From Eubacterium sp. (GTDB lineage: Bacteria > Bacillota > Clostridia > Lachnospirales > Lachnospiraceae), in NCBI GenBank assembly GCA_020844525.1, contig JAJGAH010000007.1:1-17720 (forward strand): a DNA stretch of 17,720 bases, given 5' to 3'. The notes below the pieces were generated by a model. That model ran no database searches and was not told the origin of the DNA. It saw nothing but the letters and a program-made list of their open reading frames with translations. This document shows, piece by piece, positions 3,875-17,720 of the stretch (position 1 is the stretch's first letter; every line of letters starts with the position of its first letter). Made by a program: the position numbers and the translations under genes.

Positions 3875-3980
3875 AGCCGTAACACATGATACGAATTCTC
3901 TTTTTTAGTCATTTTAATATGAAATTTACCGTACCGCCCGTGACCCCCGGTATTGCGGCTGTTTCTTTATAATCTGCACC

Positions 3981-4016
3981 AAAAAAAATTCAGGCCGGGG
4001 AGTTTATTGCTCCCCT
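3981..4016 (-). terminator. distal terminator of the VWA-protein transcript
   Basis: Read on the minus strand, a GGGGAG/CTCCCC stem (4010-4015 with 3997-4002, 7-base loop) is followed within a few bases by a run of eight T (3981-3988). It is the second of two terminators with closely similar sequence (shared AAAAAATTCAGGCC unit on the plus strand). Confidence 0.8.
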
Positions 4017-4022
4017 GACCAC

Positions 4023-4060
4023 AAAAAATTCAGGCCAGGGAGCTTATGGCCCCCTGGCCC
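4023..4060 (-). terminator. proximal terminator of the VWA-protein transcript
   Basis: On the minus strand, an 8-base perfect stem (4052-4059 with 4033-4040; GGCCAGGG/CCCTGGCC) is followed by a run of six T (4023-4028). It lies about 95 bases after the VWA gene stop. Between the stop and this hairpin, ATGATATTTTCA occurs twice (4091-4102 and 4116-4127) in an AT-rich stretch with no gene. Confidence 0.82.
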
Positions 4061-4152
4061 GAAGTCGCTTTCATCATTTATGAACTTTCAATGATATTTT
4101 CAGCGATATTATCATATGATATTTTCAATGCTGATATCTGTCAGCCATATTA

Positions 4153-5904
4153 TCAAATATTGCGCAGGCAGGTCTGCAGTATACTTCCTACAGTATCCGC
4201 AAACAGATCCAGCTGACGGATTCTGGCAAACTGACGGCCGTAAATCCGCTGCACGGACGGCAGACTCTTCTCATCCCCGGTGAACACACAGAGCACCGTG
4301 ATTCCCTGCATCCTGGTCCGGTGTACCTCTGCCGCTGTATCCTCCACGCCCATCGAACCTGCATAGTCCTTGTAAATACCGGAGGAGGTCCGCACCTTCA
4401 CCGCATCATTCGGCTTGCAGTCAGAGAGAACGATCAGCAGTCTGTATTCTGCGGGATTGTTCTTCATCATGCCGGCAGCAAGGTGGATCGCAAGGCCATC
4501 CCGGTTTGCCCCGGTGGTGAAATACCGGAAAATGTTTCTGTTTTTCTTTGGCTCGTTATAATCGCGGAACATGTTCACAACTGTGTACCCATTCATGGAA
4601 CAGAAGGAATACACCCTGACCGGGATCCCGCATCTGGTCAGGCTCTCCGCAATCATGTAGCCCTGTGCCGCCACAATGGGCTGACGGTGTACCTGCGAGG
4701 TGGATGCGTCCAGAAGGATATCGACCGTCAGATTTCCAGTATTTCCCGGAAGCACCTTTCGGAACACACGATCGTCATTCAGCTCCAGTCCACGCCAGAT
4801 CAGAGAGGCATCGAGTCGTCCCGAATTGGACTTTACCTGCTGGTCATCCATCCGCATCAGCCTGGAATTCCGGATCTGATTGGTCAGCCGCAGGATCGAA
4901 AGATTGTACCGTGTGATATTTTCCTGATAAGCCTTTTCATTCTCCCTTGCCTGGTCAATGGCCTCTTTGCGCATTTTTCCAGCGAAACCTTTTTTCAGCA
5001 TCTCCTCGTCATAAGCGCCGTCCGTAAAATGGAGCCGCACGTCCGTGTGATTTCCGGTACAGTACTCCTTCTCCATTTTCTGGACGACCTTCTGATCGTA
5101 CAGCGGCTTTCCGAAGTAATCCGTGATGTATTCCCGCAGCCCCTCATCGGTCTGTGCCGAATACTTTGCAAAGGAAACACGCAGATGGCTCTGGTCAAGC
5201 ACCTCACTGCCGTATTCTGACAGATGCTCCCCGTATCCGAAGGCCAGCCGGCGAACCGGCCCCAGATCCTGCGCGCGTCCCCGTTTTCGTCTCCGTAAGA
5301 ACAGCAGAAGAAACGGACTTTTTTTCTCCTCCCTTGGGACAGGCTTCGCTGATCCAGGGCGACGATAGGTAAAGAAGGTCTCCAGCGTATCCGCAATCCG
5401 GTCAATCACCTGGTCTGTATCCAGATCGCCGCTGACCTCAATGCTGTTCAGCAGCTTGACATCCACAATATCCGGAAGCCCCTCGTTTTCACCCAGTGCC
5501 CTGCGGAAATGTCCCCGTGTCACGGCAAGCACCCGCTGTCCTGCTGAATCCTCCAGAGAAAAACTGCCCTCCAGAGCCTTTAAATGGCGCTTTGCGTATT
5601 CCCGCCGGAGATAAGGAAAAACCGGCCGCACATCCTTTTCCCGCTGAAACGTGCAGTTCTCCATGGCAAGCCAGAACAGACTTTCGTAGGCTGTCTGATC
5701 CACCTTTTCATGAAAGGTGTTGTAAAAATTCTCCAGTTTTTTCCAGTCATAGTGCTTATGCACTGCACCAACGATACTGTTCCAGTACAGATCAGCGCGG
5801 CCATCGCTGTCAAAGACACGGAATCCGGGTTCTATGTCATAATTCTCTGCACCGTTCCAGATCAGGTTCGCGGCGCGTTTTTTCTCAAATTCCGAGATTT
5901 CCAT
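4153..5904 (-). CDS. VWA-domain protein, NorD/CobT-like, partner of a MoxR-type ATPase
   Basis: 583 residues. A long, mostly helical N-terminal region (1-390, charged, with a basic patch around RRRKRGR) precedes a C-terminal von Willebrand A domain. The metal-ion-dependent adhesion site is intact: DASTS at 399-403, Thr464 in TTGANRDG and Asp495 in LSDCKPND. This arrangement and the SGRLD...L.WRGL segment before the VWA are typical of the NorD/CobT family, which work with a MoxR-type AAA+ ATPase to remodel or load metal into a target enzyme. No signal peptide or membrane segment is seen, so it is probably cytosolic. The ATPase gene lies upstream on the same strand and two terminators follow. 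NorD activates nitric oxide reductase in proteobacteria, but no such reductase is in view, so the client is unknown. Confidence 0.85.
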   Translation of the reverse strand: MEISEFEKKRAANLIWNGAENYDIEPGFRVFDSDGRADLYWNSIVGAVHKHYDWKKLENFYNTFHEKVDQTAYESLFWLAMENCTFQREKDVRPVFPYLRREYAKRHLKALEGSFSLEDSAGQRVLAVTRGHFRRALGENEGLPDIVDVKLLNSIEVSGDLDTDQVIDRIADTLETFFTYRRPGSAKPVPREEKKSPFLLLFLRRRKRGRAQDLGPVRRLAFGYGEHLSEYGSEVLDQSHLRVSFAKYSAQTDEGLREYITDYFGKPLYDQKVVQKMEKEYCTGNHTDVRLHFTDGAYDEEMLKKGFAGKMRKEAIDQARENEKAYQENITRYNLSILRLTNQIRNSRLMRMDDQQVKSNSGRLDASLIWRGLELNDDRVFRKVLPGNTGNLTVDILLDASTSQVHRQPIVAAQGYMIAESLTRCGIPVRVYSFCSMNGYTVVNMFRDYNEPKKNRNIFRYFTTGANRDGLAIHLAAGMMKNNPAEYRLLIVLSDCKPNDAVKVRTSSGIYKDYAGSMGVEDTAAEVHRTRMQGITVLCVFTGDEKSLPSVQRIYGRQFARIRQLDLFADTVGSILQTCLRNI

Positions 5905-9414: not shown

Positions 9415-10419
9415 TTACCGATAATCCGATACGAGGAACAACGGCTTGATCCGGATTACCTCATCATAATCCTGCCTGTCCAGCGCGACGGTATGGTCCA
9501 TGCCCTTCAGATCTTCCTTCAGCACAGCCATGGCGCCTTCCAGATCCACAGCCCTCTGCTCCTTCAGAATCCGGATCATGCGGTCACAGACGATCGGGTG
9601 GGCATAGCAGGCCGGAAGGGGAAATCCAGGATAGCTGTTGATATGATGCTGCATATTGTCCAGTGCCTTCTTCCACTCCCTGTCCGCTTTTTTCCGATTT
9701 CTGCCGGGCGTGGGAAGTACCCTGCTGTTCATCATCATAAATACAGCCGCTGCACCGATCAGAATCAGCATCAGCGCGGTCATCTTCGAAAGACCAAACC
9801 GAAGTCCTGCTACAGCGACAGCGATACAGACGATTCCCGCTATCAGAATCAGCCCTGCCAGGACCTGCCAGCCGGGTTTGATCAGGTCACAGCTCCTCTT
9901 GATTCTGGCTCTGGCGATCAGCTCCTGTGAGAGTCCCGGACGCTTATGCAGCACTTCTTTTGCCTTCTCCAGCTGGCGGACTGCATGGGCTGCCTCTCCC
10001 TGCAACTCTGCCTTTTCCAGCTTTGCCGCCCGCTCCGCCTTTTCTCTGTCCGCGGCCTCGCTCTTCGGACTTTTCAGTGAAATCTCCGGATGGGTATGCT
10101 CCAGCTCTGTGAGCAGGGCGTCCGCATCATTCAGATAACGGAAGCTGCACTGCTTCTCCTGGCCGTTTTCATAGCGGAACACCAGATACAGAATCGGTGT
10201 GAGGAATGCCTTTCCGCTGCCCTTGCTCACGGCTACACGCTTGTAAACATGCGTCAGCTGTGCATACGGAATATAAAACTTCCGCGGTGTCAAAGCCCCT
10301 CCGATATAGACAGCCTTCTCCCCGAGGCCGCACTGATCATACTTCTTGCATTTTTTTCTGTCTTCCCGGAGCTCCTCCGGCGCAATCGTAACCGTACTGA
10401 GCGGCTGTGGTGTTCCCAT
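9415..10419 (-). CDS. unrecognised membrane protein with coiled coil and two transmembrane helices
   Basis: 334 residues. I do not recognise a named function. The N-terminal part (about 30-105) alternates beta-like segments (KAVYIGGALTPRKFYIPYAQL ... LVFRYENGQEKQCSFRYL) and resembles a small PH-like or bPH domain. A charged, Ala/Glu/Lys-rich coiled coil follows (about 118-160). Two hydrophobic helices (about 185-206 and 212-230) are joined by a short turn, so both soluble parts should lie on the same side, probably the cytoplasm. The C-terminal 100 residues are helical and charged. The start at 10419 follows GGGGAGG with a 7-base gap. One palindromic element copy lies just 43 bases upstream, so the promoter must be inside or very near it. 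No partner gene is obvious. Confidence 0.75.
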   Translation of the reverse strand: MGTPQPLSTVTIAPEELREDRKKCKKYDQCGLGEKAVYIGGALTPRKFYIPYAQLTHVYKRVAVSKGSGKAFLTPILYLVFRYENGQEKQCSFRYLNDADALLTELEHTHPEISLKSPKSEAADREKAERAAKLEKAELQGEAAHAVRQLEKAKEVLHKRPGLSQELIARARIKRSCDLIKPGWQVLAGLILIAGIVCIAVAVAGLRFGLSKMTALMLILIGAAAVFMMMNSRVLPTPGRNRKKADREWKKALDNMQHHINSYPGFPLPACYAHPIVCDRMIRILKEQRAVDLEGAMAVLKEDLKGMDHTVALDRQDYDEVIRIKPLFLVSDYR

Positions 10420-10462
10420 TTCATTTCCTCCCCAGTTTCATTTTCCAATCTAAAAAATATAC

Positions 10463-10717
10463 TGATGTAAGGGTCAAAAGATGTGCGCATTTGAAATTGT
10501 CTTAAAATTCTCACGGTTTCGACAAGCAAGAAGTACTAAGGCTCTTCAATTTTGCTAAAGACGTTCAGAAAAAGTCAAAACTCGCTGCATTCTGCAGCTC
10601 AGACAGTTGACTTTTTCTGAACAACGCAAAATCTCATCGCCAAGTACTTCTAGCATGTCTGCAAATGTTCGAATTTTAAGACAATTTCTTTAGCGCTTAC
10701 ATTTTGCCCCAACATTA
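10463..10717 (+). mobile_element. 255-bp palindromic MITE-like element, copy 1
   Basis: Non-coding, and matched in reverse orientation by 15246-15500. It begins TGATGTAAGGGTCAAAAG and ends with a diverged inverted version (CATTTTGCCCCAACATTA). Inside are perfect 18-base inverted arms (10493-10510 and 10671-10688), then AGAAGTACT/AGTACTTCT arms, then 16-base arms (10563-10578 and 10607-10622) around GCTGCA-TTC-TGCAGC (10584-10598). The whole unit can fold into one long hairpin. The 196-base core differs from copy 2 at about 10 positions. It has no transposase and no open frame, so if mobile it needs an enzyme from elsewhere. No clear target duplication is seen, so the ends are approximate. Confidence 0.8.
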
Positions 10718-11056
10718 TGCGATTATACATTATAAAACTATATTTTTCTTCGTCATTCAGCATACCGAAGAAGCACATACAAGCATAGTATACACTGTGT
10801 TTATCGGCAGAGCACTATGAATTCGAAATCATTTCCATTCCCAGATATTATCTTTGATACAACAAGTCAGCACTCGGCAAGCGGGCCATAAAAGCCCTGC
10901 GTTCTTATCAATCCATCCTTCCGGGAAACATATGATAAAGTATGCAAATCTCATCACTTCTGATATAATGCAATCTGATTCAGAGAATCAAAGCGTATCA
11001 ATAAGTCTGTATGAAAACGATTCATCGTCTGCAATAAATAAGGGAGCTGCCAATAC
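10718..11056. other. intergenic region upstream of the SNF2 helicase gene
   Basis: AT-rich sequence with no supported gene. A frame from a TTG at 10854 overlaps the helicase start by ATGA but has no ribosome binding site and contains the likely helicase promoter, so I do not call it. Confidence 0.6.
10961..10969 (+). promoter_or_regulatory. extended -10 promoter of the SNF2 helicase gene
   Basis: TGATATAAT: a consensus TATAAT at 10964-10969 preceded by TG one base upstream. There is no good -35 at 17 bases (TATGCA). It lies about 88 bases before the helicase ATG. The whole promoter lies inside the segment bounded by the two inverted elements, so it would move with the gene on inversion. Confidence 0.55.
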
Positions 11057-14000
11057 ATGAAGAGCTGGAGAAGTCTGTTTACACAGAACATTCTGAGCAG
11101 GGGAAAAGCCTACTACAATGCCGGAAAAGCCAAAAAGCTTTCCGATTCCGAGGATCCGCATGATCCCTACATAGACCTCTATGATGCCACCGTCCGTGGC
11201 AGCAGGAATTACCATGTGCAGATCCGGGCGACGGGTCAGTACATCAAAGACATGTCCTGTACCTGCCCCTATGCCGAACAGGGTAATGCCTGCAAGCATG
11301 AGGCGGCCGTGCTTCTGGCAATTGAAAATGAATATGGCAAGCTATACGTCAATGAGGAATCAAATGCAAAATCCGATCATGACAGTACTGCTTCTTCTCA
11401 GATACACGATGATGCTGCGTCTGGCTCAAATCGCAGTGGAAGTGCCCGGCCAGACACCCGCACCCAGCAGACGCCCGTTGAAACGGCGGATGTTTACGAC
11501 ATTATGGACCAGGACGGAAATATCATAGCCCATGGCAAAAAGAGCAGCCTCGCCGGAGAACGCGTCGTTGATATCCGGGATGTCATGCAGAAGTTTCAGA
11601 ACCTTCAGGAAGAAAACAAGCGGGATCGTGAGGCCAATGCAGATCAGGAACAGACAGCTACCTACAAGCCGGATCACTATCACTATTTCCATCCGGAGAA
11701 ATTCCGTCAGCATCTGAATATCTCCAGCGCCCTATTGTATCAGGCAGAGGAAATTGCATATCCGGAAAGACAATCCGGAACCACCGGCTCACGCACACGA
11801 GGATGGGGACCACGCCAAAACCGTAAAAGCACTCCTGACACACGCATCACCGAATTCAACGTCAGCACCGGATACCTGCAGCATTCTGATAACTCTTCAT
11901 CCATGTCTCCGATGGTCGGACAGGCATCTGCCAGATTCGAGGGAAGTGATGGACCGTTTAGAGTCACACTGCTTTTTGACCAGAACAAGATTCTTACCTC
12001 CCAGTGTATGAACTGGGATTGCCGCTATTCTGAGGGTTATCCCACAGAAAACCCGCGGAAGCTCTGCGCCCATGAGCTTGCCGTTCTGATACTTCTGGAG
12101 GATTATCTGCATAAGCATGAACTTGGAGACGCTTCCAGCTACGAAGCAGAAGGCTTTCTCACCGGATTTTCTACAGCCGGAACACCAGAAATGTCCGGGA
12201 AGAATCAGGATACCTCTCTGCGGTCTGCGGAGAATCTCACTCTGGAGCCCCGTCTGGAGCTGGAGGCTGATTCACTGCTCTCCGCAACCTTTTATATCGG
12301 AGCAGGCAGACTCTACAAAATCAAGAACCTCGGCGAATTTCTTACGCAGATGCAGCACAGGGAACGCACGCGCTTCGGAAGTGCCACGATGCTGCAGCTC
12401 GGCGAAGACTATCTGAAGGACGAGGAAAGCCGTTCCTGGTATCACTTTATCGAGGACGCCCTGGAGGACCAGCGCGAATACCGGATCTACACAGCACAGA
12501 AAATGTACGGCTATTCCGATAACAATAAACTGGATACAGATGTAAACCTGCCTCTGTTCGGCACACGGCTGGACCGCTTTGCCGATTTGATCGGCGACCG
12601 CCCCTTCGAGCTGTGGGACAAGCAGTTCTCTGCAAAGGATGGTAAGAAAACGATACGTCTGCGTGACAAGGATATGTCCGCCGTAATCAGCATCACCCCT
12701 GTAAAGGATAAAACCTATGGAAATATCAACGGCATTCATCTGACCAGCTATCTTCCCCATACGATCAACGGTATGGAACACCTGTATTATTACGATGAGC
12801 CCTGGCTGAACCGCCTGACAACGGAAGCGACAAGAAATCTGAAGCTTCTGAATCAGAGCGCGCAAGATAACGAAATCGACCTCGTCATCGGGCGTAAAAA
12901 CCTGGCCCGGTTTTACCATGATGTGCTGCCGAATCTCCGGAAAATCGCTGAGGTTCACGAAAAGGACGCAGCAAAGATCCAGAGCGTTATTCCTCCGGAA
13001 CCGGAATTCACCGCCTACCTGGACTACGACAGGAAAACGCTGATCTGCCATCTGGAGGCGGCCTACGGACAGGAGGTCTTTTCCGTCACGGATGCCATCT
13101 ATGCAGGACTCGAAAATATGACGCTGGTACCGACTTATCGCGACCGCAGTAAGGAAGAATTTTACAGTACAATTGCACAGCGCTATTTCCACAATTTTGA
13201 TCCGGACCTGAAGCTCTTGTACACTGAAAAGGATGATGACGCCCTCTTTGAGCTGTTGGACCATGGCATTTCGGAGCTGATGGACTATGGCGAGGTACGC
13301 ATGACGCCGCAGTTCCGCAGCCTTGGAATCCGTCACAGACTGCCCGTCAAGGTCGGCGTCAATGTAGAGAGCAATCTGCTGGATCTCTCCGTCTCCTCCG
13401 AGGATCTCACGGAAGACGAGATTCTCTTCCAGTACCGCCGGAAGAAAAAATACATCCGCCTGAAGGACGGCAGCCTGCTGAAACTGGACCAGAACGATTC
13501 CGTGGAAGAGCTCAACAAGATGCTGGAGATCCTGCAGATCCCACTGAAGGAATTTGTAAAAGGCAAGCTGCAGCTGCCTGCCTATCGCGCATTATATCTG
13601 GACCGGATGCTGGAGACGTCTGAGGATCTTTACGCCGTAAGAGACCGGCGCTTCAAGCATCTGGTCAAGGAATTCAAAACAGTGGAGGATGCAGACTTTG
13701 ATGTGCCAAAGTCCCTGGAAGGAACGCTCCGCAAATATCAGAAGGATGGCTATCGCTGGCTGCGCGTGCTTGCCCAGTACGGCTTCGGCGGTATCCTCGC
13801 AGATGAAATGGGGCTTGGAAAAACCCTTCAGGTCATCACAGTCCTGCTGGCATCAAAAGAAGAAGCAGAACAGGACAACCGGCCTGTACCGACCAGTGAA
13901 GACGCCCCCTCACGCGTAAGCCTGATCATCAGCCCGGCATCACTGATCTACAACTGGGAGGAGGAGCTGCACCGCTTTGCACCGGCCCTTCGCACGAAGG

Positions 14001-15151
14001 TCATTGCAGGGACTGCATTGGAGCGTAAAGCAATGCTCAAAGACTACGCCGATTACGACGTCATTGTCACCTCCTATGATCTGCTGAAACGCGATATCGC
14101 CGAATATGAGGACCTGAGGTTCCACTATGAGGTGATCGATGAGGCACAGTACATCAAAAATCCGGGAACAGCGGCCTCCAAGTCCGTCAAGCTGATCCAC
14201 GCTGCAACGCGCTTTGCGCTCACCGGTACCCCGATCGAAAACCGTCTGTCAGAGCTGTGGTCCATTTTCGATTATCTGATGCCCGGTTTTCTGTATCACT
14301 ATGACCAGTTCCACAATACCTTTGAACAGCCGATTGCAGGCGGCGACGAGGAGGCAGCAGAACAGCTCAAGCGGATGGTCTCCCCGTTTATTCTCCGCCG
14401 TCTCAAGAAGGATGTGCTCAAGGACCTGCCGGAGAAGCTGGAGGAAGTGCGATACGTGCAGATGGGCAAGAAGCAGCAGAAGCTCTATGACGCGGAGGTT
14501 CTCCGGATGAAACGGGACCTTGCAGAGAAGACCGATGAGGATTTCCGCAAGGGCAAACTCGAAATTCTTGCGGCAATCACGCGGATCCGGCAGATCTGCT
14601 GTGACCCGTCCCTGTGCTATGAGGACTATGACGGTGAATCCGCCAAGCGGGAGGCTGTCCTGGACCTGATCCATTCGCTGACCGATTCCGGGCACCGCGC
14701 TCTCCTGTTCTCGCAGTTTACATCCATGCTGTCTCTGCTGCGGGAGGACCTGATCCGGGAGAAAATCCCCTTCTTTGAGATTACCGGTGCCACCCGTAAG
14801 GAAGAGCGAATCCGTCTGGTGCGTGAATTCAATGAGAACCCGGATATCCCGGTCTTCCTCATCTCCCTGAAGGCCGGCGGGACCGGCCTGAACCTGACAG
14901 GGGCAGACGTCGTCATCCACTATGACCCATGGTGGAACACCTCCGCAGAGGACCAGGCCACAGACCGTGCCCACAGAATCGGACAGAAGCGTGTCGTGAC
15001 CGTCTACAAGATGATCATCCGCAACTCCATGGAGGATCGGATTCTGGAGATGCAGAAACGGAAAAAGGACCTGGCGGACCAGATCCTGAGCGGCGAATCT
15101 CTGGCAAGCAGCACCATCACGAAGGATGATCTGATGCAGATCCTTTCCTGA
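11057..15151 (+). CDS. SWIM zinc-finger SNF2-family DNA helicase/translocase
   Basis: 1364 residues. N-terminal SWIM zinc finger with Cys68, Cys70, Cys79 and His81, then a low-complexity polar linker (about 95-220). A second Cys/His cluster (Cys317, Cys322, Cys337, His339) resembles a variant SWIM. The middle (about 370-880) matches the SNF2-associated region of Firmicutes helicases. The motor has DEMGLGKT (916-923), DEAQ (1028-1031), LTGTP (1055-1059) and a helicase C part with GGTGLNLTGAD, WWNTSAEDQATDRAHRIGQ (about 1292-1312). All catalytic motifs are intact. It is an ATP-driven duplex DNA translocase; the role in bacteria of this type is not settled (transcription or repair are candidates, defence is possible). 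The start at 11057 follows AGGGAG. It is a lone gene between two inverted elements. There is no own terminator other than the hairpin of copy 2. Confidence 0.95.
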   Translation: MKSWRSLFTQNILSRGKAYYNAGKAKKLSDSEDPHDPYIDLYDATVRGSRNYHVQIRATGQYIKDMSCTCPYAEQGNACKHEAAVLLAIENEYGKLYVNEESNAKSDHDSTASSQIHDDAASGSNRSGSARPDTRTQQTPVETADVYDIMDQDGNIIAHGKKSSLAGERVVDIRDVMQKFQNLQEENKRDREANADQEQTATYKPDHYHYFHPEKFRQHLNISSALLYQAEEIAYPERQSGTTGSRTRGWGPRQNRKSTPDTRITEFNVSTGYLQHSDNSSSMSPMVGQASARFEGSDGPFRVTLLFDQNKILTSQCMNWDCRYSEGYPTENPRKLCAHELAVLILLEDYLHKHELGDASSYEAEGFLTGFSTAGTPEMSGKNQDTSLRSAENLTLEPRLELEADSLLSATFYIGAGRLYKIKNLGEFLTQMQHRERTRFGSATMLQLGEDYLKDEESRSWYHFIEDALEDQREYRIYTAQKMYGYSDNNKLDTDVNLPLFGTRLDRFADLIGDRPFELWDKQFSAKDGKKTIRLRDKDMSAVISITPVKDKTYGNINGIHLTSYLPHTINGMEHLYYYDEPWLNRLTTEATRNLKLLNQSAQDNEIDLVIGRKNLARFYHDVLPNLRKIAEVHEKDAAKIQSVIPPEPEFTAYLDYDRKTLICHLEAAYGQEVFSVTDAIYAGLENMTLVPTYRDRSKEEFYSTIAQRYFHNFDPDLKLLYTEKDDDALFELLDHGISELMDYGEVRMTPQFRSLGIRHRLPVKVGVNVESNLLDLSVSSEDLTEDEILFQYRRKKKYIRLKDGSLLKLDQNDSVEELNKMLEILQIPLKEFVKGKLQLPAYRALYLDRMLETSEDLYAVRDRRFKHLVKEFKTVEDADFDVPKSLEGTLRKYQKDGYRWLRVLAQYGFGGILADEMGLGKTLQVITVLLASKEEAEQDNRPVPTSEDAPSRVSLIISPASLIYNWEEELHRFAPALRTKVIAGTALERKAMLKDYADYDVIVTSYDLLKRDIAEYEDLRFHYEVIDEAQYIKNPGTAASKSVKLIHAATRFALTGTPIENRLSELWSIFDYLMPGFLYHYDQFHNTFEQPIAGGDEEAAEQLKRMVSPFILRRLKKDVLKDLPEKLEEVRYVQMGKKQQKLYDAEVLRMKRDLAEKTDEDFRKGKLEILAAITRIRQICCDPSLCYEDYDGESAKREAVLDLIHSLTDSGHRALLFSQFTSMLSLLREDLIREKIPFFEITGATRKEERIRLVREFNENPDIPVFLISLKAGGTGLNLTGADVVIHYDPWWNTSAEDQATDRAHRIGQKRVVTVYKMIIRNSMEDRILEMQKRKKDLADQILSGESLASSTITKDDLMQILS

Positions 15152-15245
15152 TAGAAATCCTTTTCGGATGCTCTCCTGCCTTTTGCTGCATTGCTATGAG
15201 CTCAATATTTTCAAAAATATCTATACTACGATGTTCTTGACCATA

Positions 15246-15500
15246 TGATATTTGGCCAGGAAAAAAATGTATGGGGAATTGTCTTGGAATTCGAACATTT
15301 GCAGACATGCTAGAAGTACTTGGTGATGAGATTTTGCGTTGTTCAGAAAAAGTCAACTGTCTGAGCTGCAGAATGCAGCGAGTTTTGACTTTTTCTGAAC
15401 GCTCTTAGCAAAATTGAAGAACCGTAGTACTTCTTGCTTGTCGAAACCGTGAGAATTTCAAGACAATTTCATAAACATACATCTTTTGACCCTTGCATCA
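15246..15500 (-). mobile_element. 255-bp palindromic MITE-like element, copy 2 (inverted)
   Basis: Reverse complement of the unit at 10463-10717 and of the same length. Inner terminal arms are 15275-15292 and 15453-15470; the 16-base central arms are 15341-15356 and 15385-15400. The outer end CCCTTGCATCA (15490-15500) includes the three bases of the cysN stop codon. It lies between the converging helicase and cysN genes, where its A-rich/T-rich central hairpin could end transcription from both sides. The octamer CATATGAT occurs at 15242-15249 and 15499-15506, near both ends but not in exact register with the boundaries. Positions 15152-15245 hold no gene; ATATTTTCAAAAATAT is a weak dyad there. 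Confidence 0.8.
15341..15400. terminator. possible two-way terminator hairpin within element copy 2
   Basis: Perfect 16-base arms with GAAAAAGTCAA on one side and TTGACTTTTTC on the other, enclosing GCTGCA-GAA-TGCAGC-type inner arms, lie between convergent genes. The T-run is inside the stem rather than after it, so terminator action is inference. No other terminator is seen for either gene. Confidence 0.4.
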
Positions 15501-17147
15501 TATGATCCAGTTATCATTCTCCATCGTCATCCCGGCTGTCGTGATCCGGAAGATTCTGGAATAAATGTTCTCCGGCGAAGCATCCCCTTCACCACGAATA
15601 GCACTCCATGTCTTGTAGTGCTCGTCAGACGCAAGTGCATCATCTGTCTTCTCCTCGCCTCCAGTCACCAGAAGGACGATCAGACCCGCATTATAGAGAT
15701 GAGACACCACCTTCACATAATCCTCTCCCGGCTCCGGCTGATAAAGATAGGTGTGCCGGCCGTTTCTGACCAGCATGTACTCCGCCTCTGCAATCGCATC
15801 GATATCGGTACCGTCAGTCTTTGGATTGAATTCAATCACTGCCGGTGTCTGCCAGTTAAGCGCTGCTCTTGAGCTGCGGTCTGCATGCGGCGTTCTCTTT
15901 TTCCCGCTGCCAAGCGTACGAATTACACCGCAGGCTGAAGTCATATTGCTGATTCTGTCGATCAGAATCAGCTCGCCCATCGTCCGGTAATCCCCGAAGG
16001 GCGCCGCGATGACCGGCTCTGTCACGGCGATAGTGACAATAGCAATTTCATTTTTACGGAGAACAGAGGTCTCCTTATGAGCTCCCGTATTCACATCGAT
16101 CGAATAGGCAATGGAGGTTACGATGCCTGGTATCTGCTTCGTTCCAAGCTTGACCAGAAAATTCTTTCCAACGGTCAGCGCCTCATCGTCCATCCACAGG
16201 ATCTCTGTCTCAAAGGAATCTGCCGCCCGCAGACTTGTGCCGGACTCAATGACACAGCCACGGGACACGTCAACCTCCCGGTCCAGCTGAATCGTGACGG
16301 GCTGTCCGGTCCCTGCCTGAGCCACCTTCCGGTCCGCCCACAAGATGCTCTTTACATGTGCCTCCTCACCGCTTGGCAGTGACCGCACGCTGTCCCCGAT
16401 ATGAACGGAGCCATGCTCAATCTGTCCCTCAAAGCCACGGAATTCATGATTCGGACGGCAGACTCTCTGCACCGGCATATAAAAGCCACGCCCGGCCTCA
16501 TCCTCATCCCCGGTATCTACAGTCTCAAGGTAATCAAGCAGTACAGGTCCCTTGTACCAGTCCATATTCTCTGAGCGCTTCGTGATGTTGTCGCCCTCGG
16601 TGGCCGAAACCGGGATAATCACAATGTTGTACAGACCAAGTTCCTCGCGAAGCTCTTCAATCTGCTTCTCAATTTCCCGAAAGCGTTCTTCCGAATATCC
16701 GGCAAGGTCCATCTTGTTCACAGCAAACACAAAGTACCGGATGCCCATCAGGGCACAGATCCTTGCATGCCGTCTGGTCTGTACGAGAACCCCCTTGGTC
16801 GCATCAAGGAGAATGATGGCAAGCTCCGCAAAGGACGCGCCGCAGGCCATGTTTCTCGTATATTCCTCATGGCCTGGCGTATCCGCACAGATAAAGCTCC
16901 TTCTGTCCGTTGTAAAATACCGGTACGCCACATCGATCGTGATGCCCTGTTCTCTCTCCGCCATCAGACCGTCCAGCAAAAGAGAGTAATCGATCTCTCC
17001 GCCCCTGGACCCCACACGGGAATCCAGCTTCAGTGCCTCCTCCTGATCCGCATAGATCAGCTTGGCATCATAGAGAAGATGACCGATCAGGGTTGATTTT
17101 CCATCGTCTACACTTCCGCAGGTAATAAACTTCAGTAATCCGCTCAT
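15498..17147 (-). CDS. cysN: sulfate adenylyltransferase large subunit with degenerate APS-kinase-like tail
   Basis: 549 residues. GTPase subunit that drives formation of adenosine 5'-phosphosulfate from sulfate and ATP together with CysD, in sulfate assimilation, in the cytosol. The elongation-factor-like GTPase motifs are intact: GSVDDGKST (11-19), REQGIT (65-70), DTPGHEEY (89-96) and NKMD (144-147). Beta-barrel domains follow to about 425. The remaining 120 residues are an extension absent from E. coli CysN: AVIEFNPKTDGTD...GRHTYLYQPE...NAGLIVLLVTGG aligns in order with APS kinase, but the P-loop (GLSGSGKS) is replaced by NPKTDGTD and the domain is shortened. The ATG at 17147 lies one base after the cysD stop; the frame is open further upstream but inside cysD. 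The stop codon overlaps the end of a repeat element. Confidence 0.95.
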   Translation of the reverse strand: MSGLLKFITCGSVDDGKSTLIGHLLYDAKLIYADQEEALKLDSRVGSRGGEIDYSLLLDGLMAEREQGITIDVAYRYFTTDRRSFICADTPGHEEYTRNMACGASFAELAIILLDATKGVLVQTRRHARICALMGIRYFVFAVNKMDLAGYSEERFREIEKQIEELREELGLYNIVIIPVSATEGDNITKRSENMDWYKGPVLLDYLETVDTGDEDEAGRGFYMPVQRVCRPNHEFRGFEGQIEHGSVHIGDSVRSLPSGEEAHVKSILWADRKVAQAGTGQPVTIQLDREVDVSRGCVIESGTSLRAADSFETEILWMDDEALTVGKNFLVKLGTKQIPGIVTSIAYSIDVNTGAHKETSVLRKNEIAIVTIAVTEPVIAAPFGDYRTMGELILIDRISNMTSACGVIRTLGSGKKRTPHADRSSRAALNWQTPAVIEFNPKTDGTDIDAIAEAEYMLVRNGRHTYLYQPEPGEDYVKVVSHLYNAGLIVLLVTGGEEKTDDALASDEHYKTWSAIRGEGDASPENIYSRIFRITTAGMTMENDNWII

Positions 17148-17148
17148 C

Positions 17149-17720
17149 TTAGAAATACCCCTCTCTCTTCCGTCTTTCCATGCTCGCCGCCCCGTCATGA
17201 TCAATGACACGGCTGGTTCTCTCGGATTCCACCGCACCAAGGGTTTCCTCCACAATCGCATCCAGTGTATCCGCCTCTGATTCGAAGCCACCGGTCAGCG
17301 GATAGCAGCCCAATGTGCGGAAACGTATTTTCTTGTGCATGATATCGGACGGCTTCAGCTGCAGCTTCTGCACAATGCGGTCGTCATCCACCATGATCAG
17401 ATTGCCGTCCCGCTCAATACACGGGCGCTCCTTGGCATAGTAGAGAGAGACAATCTCCAGATTCTCCCGCTGAATGTACTGCCAGATATCCTTCTCTGTC
17501 CAGTTCGAAAGTGGAAAAACCCGCATGCTCTCGCCCTTGTTGATCTGGGTGTTGTAGAGCTTCCACATCTCGGGGCGCTGGTTCTTCGGGTCCCAGGCCT
17601 GTGCGGAATTCCGGAAGGAGAAGATCCGCTCCTTCGCACGGGACTTCTCCTCATCCCTTCTGCCGCCGCCGAAGGCAGCCGTAAATCCATAGGTCGTTAA
17701 TGCCTGCTTCAATGCCTGGG
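17149..17720 (-). CDS. cysD: sulfate adenylyltransferase small subunit, partial (N-terminus off the right edge)
   Basis: The last 190 or so residues of CysD, the PAPS-reductase-like subunit that makes the adenylyl transfer. Clear family segments: [51 protein letters not shown] and [13 protein letters not shown], and the usual C-terminal ERKREGYF-type ending ([10 protein letters not shown]). The frame is open to the last base of the window; the start lies outside. Stop is TAA at 17149-17151, with cysN one base further, so the two are translationally coupled as is usual. Nothing abnormal is seen in the visible part. Confidence 0.96.

Follow-up and report, generated by a model that had tools for sequence, protein, structure and literature searches.

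The two inverted, non-coding repeats that bracket a helicase gene in the stretch of Eubacterium sp. DNA analyzed here (17,720 nucleotides, hereafter the window) are best read as copies of an old, mostly immobile, non-autonomous, MITE-like palindrome carried on ends that recur across the host family, with the pairing around the helicase being coincidental; we place the probability of this reading at roughly 0.7.

Both copies span 257 bp from wing to wing, with their ends assigned by the family consensus, and the proposal that two equal-length elements face each other in opposite orientation is borne out. Copy 1 (10462–10718, forward strand) lies between the start of a reverse-strand ORF (9415–10419) and the helicase gene. 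It consists of a left wing (10462–10492), the first 19 bases of which agree with the family-wide end motif at 17 positions, a 196-bp core (10493–10688) bounded by an 18-base inverted repeat (10493–10510 and 10671–10688), and a right wing (10689–10718; end motif 15 of 19). Copy 2 (15245–15501, reverse strand; 196-bp core at 15275–15470) runs opposite to copy 1, with the 3′ end of the helicase gene on one side and that of a CysN-like gene on the other. The end motif is present at both termini of both copies. A mechanical repeat search of the window recovered the pair as inverted arms at 10463–10686 and 15277–15500 (224 nt, 93% complementary), and a hand count on the alignment of the two cores gave 10 differing positions, in agreement with the earlier estimate of about 10 of 196. 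Neither window copy has a target duplication, and the triplets flanking the pair on the outside (ATA and ATG) are unmatched. The 257-bp element contains no gene-like ORF. Folded as RNA, copy 1 reaches −103.1 kcal/mol (z −12.3), a stability equaled in 0 of 200 shuffles. No terminator-like site was found inside either window element, the region as a whole having 7 vs. 5.4 in shuffles. Each core contains the same promoter-like match (TTGACT, spacing 18, CAAAAT; 9 of 12), at 10549–10578 on the reverse strand and 15385–15414 on the forward strand; across the whole region such matches are not in excess (7 vs. 5.6 in shuffles).

The genome from which the window derives is a draft (2.53 Mb in 384 contigs, 69% complete), in which assembly joins made through the near-identical 196-bp core may be wrong. 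The repeat occurs in at least 40 places of this genome (at least 85 matches; 40 of 68 candidates scored, and matches merged by place). These comprise 22 copies with the long core (contig ends truncate five), 17 copies that are short or have one arm, and a single inner fragment. When the central junctions of the 12 two-armed short copies were compared by eye, eight shared one junction, one was off by a single base and three differed, which suggests that the short copies are long copies shrunk by central deletion. The terminal motif has decayed in many of the copies. A target duplication is kept in only two (loci L002 and L003) of the 29 places tested, cut and one-armed copies having been left out; at these two loci the duplications lie outside the wings, so that the wing-to-wing unit is there the inserted unit. 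The small number of duplications is explained by decay, to which chimeric draft joins could add in the case of the long copies. Neither the core nor the whole element matched viral contigs, plasmids or phages, and a core 31-mer had 0 hits in a genome-contig collection from which records of this or near genomes are possibly missing.

With simple ORF picking, the surroundings of 39 of the 40 places were examined. No ORF of at least 90 aa overlaps the element in 35 of these, and the four overlaps were judged mostly spurious. Among the 32 copies with both sides scored, 17 lie between codirectional, 12 between convergent and three between divergent neighbors; in the codirectional settings the core points opposite to the genes 11 times and the same way six times (hand tally). 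The placement of the copies fits the removal of promoter-hitting insertions, or a role at 3′ ends. An element end falls within 8 bases of a neighboring stop codon in 14 of 39 copies, and of a start codon in one. Ends near a stop are seen in window copy 2 and at L003, L004, L007, L008, L009, L014, L015, L029, L031, L033, L038, L040, L041 and L042. In the case of copy 2, the CysN-like gene takes its TGA stop codon from the element's ATCAT end (15497–15501). That gene (15498–17291, reverse strand) encodes the large subunit of sulfate adenylyltransferase, CysN (TIGR02034, 530.8 bits against a cut-off of 336.1), and the GTP_EFTU match downstream of copy 2 is part of it. Two further repeats were noted elsewhere in the window: between the enolase gene and the ORF at 4153–5904 lies a 37-nt direct repeat (3978–4054; spacing 40, 86% alike), and upstream of the enolase gene a short AT-rich palindrome with a direct repeat (ATGATATTTTC units; 4091–4138).

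The sole gene between the two copies (11057–15151, forward strand) encodes a SNF2-family helicase with a weak SWIM match. In a Pfam search, SNF2_assoc, SNF2 and Helicase_C exceeded their cut-offs, and SWIM scored 19.2 bits against a cut-off of 19.6; the sequence-only reading of one enclosed SNF2 helicase gene with its upstream region therefore stands, except that the SWIM domain it named falls slightly under the threshold. That reading went on to propose that recombination between the copies inverts the helicase segment, or that the segment is mobile as a composite cassette. Two opposed copies, 93% alike over 224 nt and enclosing a single gene, are what such a switch or cassette would offer, and recombination between them, inverting the segment, is possible. 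However, the repeat is scattered over at least 40 places, and random placement of 39–60 elements predicts 1.4–3.3 inverted neighboring pairs within 5.04 kb, with a chance of 0.78–0.97 of at least one pair that close. Given so many copies and so high a chance of such a pair, the bracketing of the helicase needs no special cause; the gene sits between the two copies by chance. A parallel is found at locus L288 of another genome (G069), in which such ends abound: a lone ORF there lies between two small elements that share these ends. The unequal outer triplets count against a cassette as well, although this is a weak point because single copies in this genome have mostly lost their duplications too.

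Comparison with relatives adds no tie between gene and element. The helicase has a match at E 0.001 in nine of the 16 genomes of the genus, its own included, and full-length orthologues occur in the congeners G012 and G002, both with different neighbors, a difference that a movable or invertible segment would also produce. Yet these helicase-bearing congeners lack the element, which by blastn is absent from 40 of 40 relatives (15 of them congeners). Around four helicase relatives (L324–L327; the two orthologues and two more distant relatives), none of the ten other window proteins was found nearby (E 1e-5), and RF01699, the Rfam family discussed below, gave no match at its gathering score. The context of the helicase locus thus differs among relatives, and nothing links that difference to the element. 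Dozens of copies scattered at random, no reads with an inverted junction and a helicase locus fixed in relatives had been named in advance as what would make the pairing coincidental, and the outcome largely agrees (at least 40 scattered places, and a bracketing pair to be expected by chance). The synteny comparison suggested alongside it gave orthologues in other contexts and congeners without the element. We accordingly regard an invertible or composite helicase cassette as very improbable; a phase-variation story for this window is tempting but unsupported, and we have removed it.

The ends of the element place it in a wider group. Of 299 genomes of the host family, which we take to be Lachnospiraceae, 110 contain the end motif ATGATRYYRGGGTCAAAAG with at most one mismatch, and a genome can hold up to 163 ends, while a reversed control pattern gave six hits in the same search (our own count). 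The wing motif is also present in G009, a congener without the core, where it includes two pairs 210 bp apart. In a scan of named genomes, ATGATRTYRGGGTCAAAAG was found in at least 119 stretches; among 80 listed titles, 47 name Lachnospiraceae, six name genera placed there, and 27 bear other names or none, several of the otherwise-named genomes being ones that we take to be Lachnospiraceae members. Paired ends are mostly 40–250 bp apart. Target duplications were scored in 80 of the 119 loci, which gave 44 end pairs (in five loci, one end is counted in more than one pairing), two of them too near an end, leaving 42 testable. A perfect 3-bp direct repeat stands outside the ends in 26 of these, against 0.8 expected, and a 4-bp repeat in four; by eye, the flanks have AT on the far side of the duplicated triplet. 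Since its ends are common to short inverted-repeat elements with 3–4-bp target duplications across the family, the earlier impression that a single element looks like a MITE holds. The same ends also bound elements with other interiors (L201, L208 and forms of 40–41 bp). At L201:6315–6524 and L208:2594–2804 (MAG S27M_St_58), these ends enclose yet another long palindrome, the third type of interior and unlike the other two, and the triplets beyond the ends match.

Most visibly, these ends belong to elements annotated as RF01699 (Clostridiales-1 RNA). All eight end-motif loci tested matched RF01699 along the full length of its model (E 1.8e-33 to 9.2e-11), as did both end-paired elements of G009. 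The family occurs in 16 of 16 genomes of the genus, with at least 30 matches in six of them (no more than 38 candidates were scored), and in 32 of 61 genomes overall (26 over the cut-off), including two of 24 genomes from other families of the order; 14 control genomes gave none at E 0.001 and one, below the cut-off, at E 0.1. We then have 56 places chosen by RF01699 and not by their ends (16 for genome breadth and 40 down the ranking, some skipped). At least 11 of 19 bases match between the two ends in 46 of them; in 38 of these the inverted partner end lies beyond the model, and in the other eight the only pairing is with its closing stem. Duplications of 3–4 bp were scored in 27 of the 46, all within the 38 with a partner end beyond the model, whereas shuffled flanks for the same 46 rows averaged 1.5 and never exceeded seven; several G015 copies are near-identical, so these rows are not all independent. 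Among the other 10 places, a triplet match was likewise seen in two. The end sequence drifts by lineage (e.g., ATGATTTAAACGCCAAAAG in G015), with ATGAT and CAAAAG mostly kept. In some congeners, RF01699 elements were observed in tandem, at G008:C35:17977–17995 (L130), G010:C37:1372–1870 and G015:C88:26302–26641.

These ends and target duplications are sequence evidence that RF01699, listed by Rfam as an sRNA family, has the anatomy of a transposon. Weinberg et al. (2010; PMC2864571) class Clostridiales-1 among the probable RNAs that are neither switches nor cis-regulatory. That it is an ordinary sRNA gene, whose inverted ends and flanking repeats are incidental, would agree with this listing, with the fit of a multi-hairpin model to entire elements across many genomes, and with the 18 of 56 places that have no partner end beyond the model (in eight, the best partner is the closing stem). 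It is made improbable by matched 3–4-bp repeats at the element ends in 27 of the 56 places (1.5 expected for the 46 rows scored), by the high copy number in six of 16 genus genomes, and by the same ends recurring around the other interiors described above. Mobility and a functional RNA could both hold together. We found no description of RF01699 as mobile in the licensed PMC subset, a body of text to which supplements and subscription papers do not belong; were it a transposable element, both the annotation of its copies and the interpretation of expression signals at those sites would change.

The window element itself is not an RF01699 member. The model had no match to the window at the gathering score, nor to L001, L009, L002, L003, L007 or L014 even at E 5; other Rfam families reported at E up to 5 for the element loci were weak and unrelated, and were taken as chance. 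By eye, the six RF01699 copies of the window's own genome have ends unlike the ATGATRYYRGGGTCAAAAG type. With no interior match and with those copies bearing other ends, it is the end motif alone that joins the window element to this group, and from it we infer a relation by shared mobilization.

No autonomous element was found in the sample searched (119 end-motif loci, 20 Y1 loci and the G069 pairs). When the ORFs near 168 end sites of the 119 loci were compared all against all, no protein family was shared with more than five other loci, and no protein at a fixed offset from the end sites was seen by eye. Y1 transposases, present in 12 of 16 genus genomes, were considered as the mover and rejected, as the 20 Y1 loci examined hold no end motif at up to three mismatches. 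Three candidates for an autonomous element were likewise set aside: a 3.3-kb end pair at L176, whose enclosed genes look host-like by eye; G069 L288, which is two small elements flanking one ORF; and G069 L289, which has one small element and one further end only.

Within the window's own genome, variation is distributed unevenly along the element, making it a clear system for asking why the core of a palindrome stays uniform while its ends decay. Among 17 of the 22 long copies (the five cut by contig ends omitted), the mean pairwise difference is 0.69 and 0.68 in the two flanks, 0.42 and 0.50 in the wings, and 0.02–0.08 across all parts of the core, and the step from wing to core is completed within two bases at both borders. 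Short copies (n = 11) show the same step, from 0.56 to 0.06 over 76 adjacent bases, in an ungapped comparison whose long-copy core value (0.134) is too high owing to one or more indels (L008). The step falls inside 76 adjacent bases, which a short read of typical length would cover, so that it is unlikely to stem from repeat collapse. Distances in the wings and in the core are uncorrelated (Mantel r 0.10, p 0.29), as are those of the left and right wings (r 0.18, p 0.15), and the two core halves are weakly correlated (r 0.38, p 0.03). The four-gamete rule is broken in 21 of 28 pairs of eight informative core sites, compared with 21.8 in shuffled columns; chimeric draft joins would blur these tests of linkage. 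Standard pairing holds in 301 of the 306 outer-stem cells of the 17 long copies; L010, L012 and L016 show double changes. Core remnants, judged by eye at 24 wing sites, are clear in 13, doubtful in two and missing in nine. Uniformity of the core probably reflects selection on it or gene conversion between copies.

The core could be a functional sequence (e.g., a 3′-end processing signal, or a protein-binding or chromosome-organizing site) maintained on dead insertions, with transposition mere history; we consider this a serious possibility, though one we would bet against. The sharp step at both borders in long and short copies, the preserved outer-stem pairing with its double changes, and the predominance of convergent over divergent settings (12 vs. 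3 of 32 scorable copies) all speak for it. Against it, core orientation in codirectional settings is unbiased (11 opposite, six same), neither window element has a terminator-like match, much of the core is lost in 17 of 40 places, and core variants mix as shuffled columns do, as gene conversion likewise predicts. Sharp borders also suit a nested insertion, in which the 196-bp core is a separate, younger element that homed into the center of old wing-only palindromes, and so do the near-perfect 18-base inverted repeat, the lack of correlation between core and wing distances, and the nine wing sites with no visible remnant. Clear remnants at 13 of the 24 sites point the other way; moreover, no clean empty center linking a left and a right wing was seen among the sites inspected, the core has no flanking duplication of its own by eye, and the duplications of L002 and L003 sit outside the wings, which leaves nested insertion unlikely. 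A broader, speculative and rather doubtful scenario takes Clostridiales-1 RNA to be the body of a transposable element found across Lachnospiraceae, with a conserved multi-hairpin fold that would serve its own mobilization as ssDNA or transcript; the unrelated long palindrome of the window species would have taken over the same ends, its core kept uniform over some 40 loci by palindrome-triggered gene conversion.

The reading that we prefer, an old and mostly immobile MITE-like palindrome, would work as follows. Its terminal inverted repeats belong to the group of short elements found across the host family, in which paired ends and duplications are observed. A putative transposase acting on these ends would insert elements at AT-NNN-AT and duplicate the middle three, sometimes four, bases. 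In the window's species the shared ends carry a different, genome-specific palindromic interior of 196 bp, and its copies would mostly have stopped moving, with ends and duplications decaying around a near-uniform core kept so by selection or by conversion between copies; some long copies would have been shortened by central deletion. Several observations run against this account: the searches described above gave no transposase, a duplication is kept in only two of 29 copies of this genome, the link to RF01699 elements is through the end motif alone, the sharp border of the core is unlike simple decay of a whole element, and the nine of 24 wing sites without a core remnant would equally be expected had the core entered old wings at a later time.

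Among known systems, REP and BIME-type palindromes, which are moved by Y1 (RAYT) transposases, resemble the window-type copies in being intergenic palindromes near the 3′ ends of genes; to our knowledge, however, Y1 elements would not be expected to have long terminal inverted repeats together with target duplications. The window element is closer to MITEs in being short, non-coding and multi-copy, with terminal inverted repeats and, in the wider group with the same ends, short target duplications. It differs from them in that no parent transposase was found at the 119 end-motif loci, and in that its ends are far less conserved than its interior, whereas in a recently active MITE the ends are expected to be the better conserved part. 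With regard to RF01699 elements, its interior is unrelated and forms one long palindrome instead of several hairpins, and the RF01699 copies of its own genome bear other ends; what the two share is the terminal motif ATGATRYYRGGGTCAAAAG, a similar length, a multi-copy and intergenic distribution, and duplications of 3–4 bp, found around RF01699 elements and around two copies in this genome.
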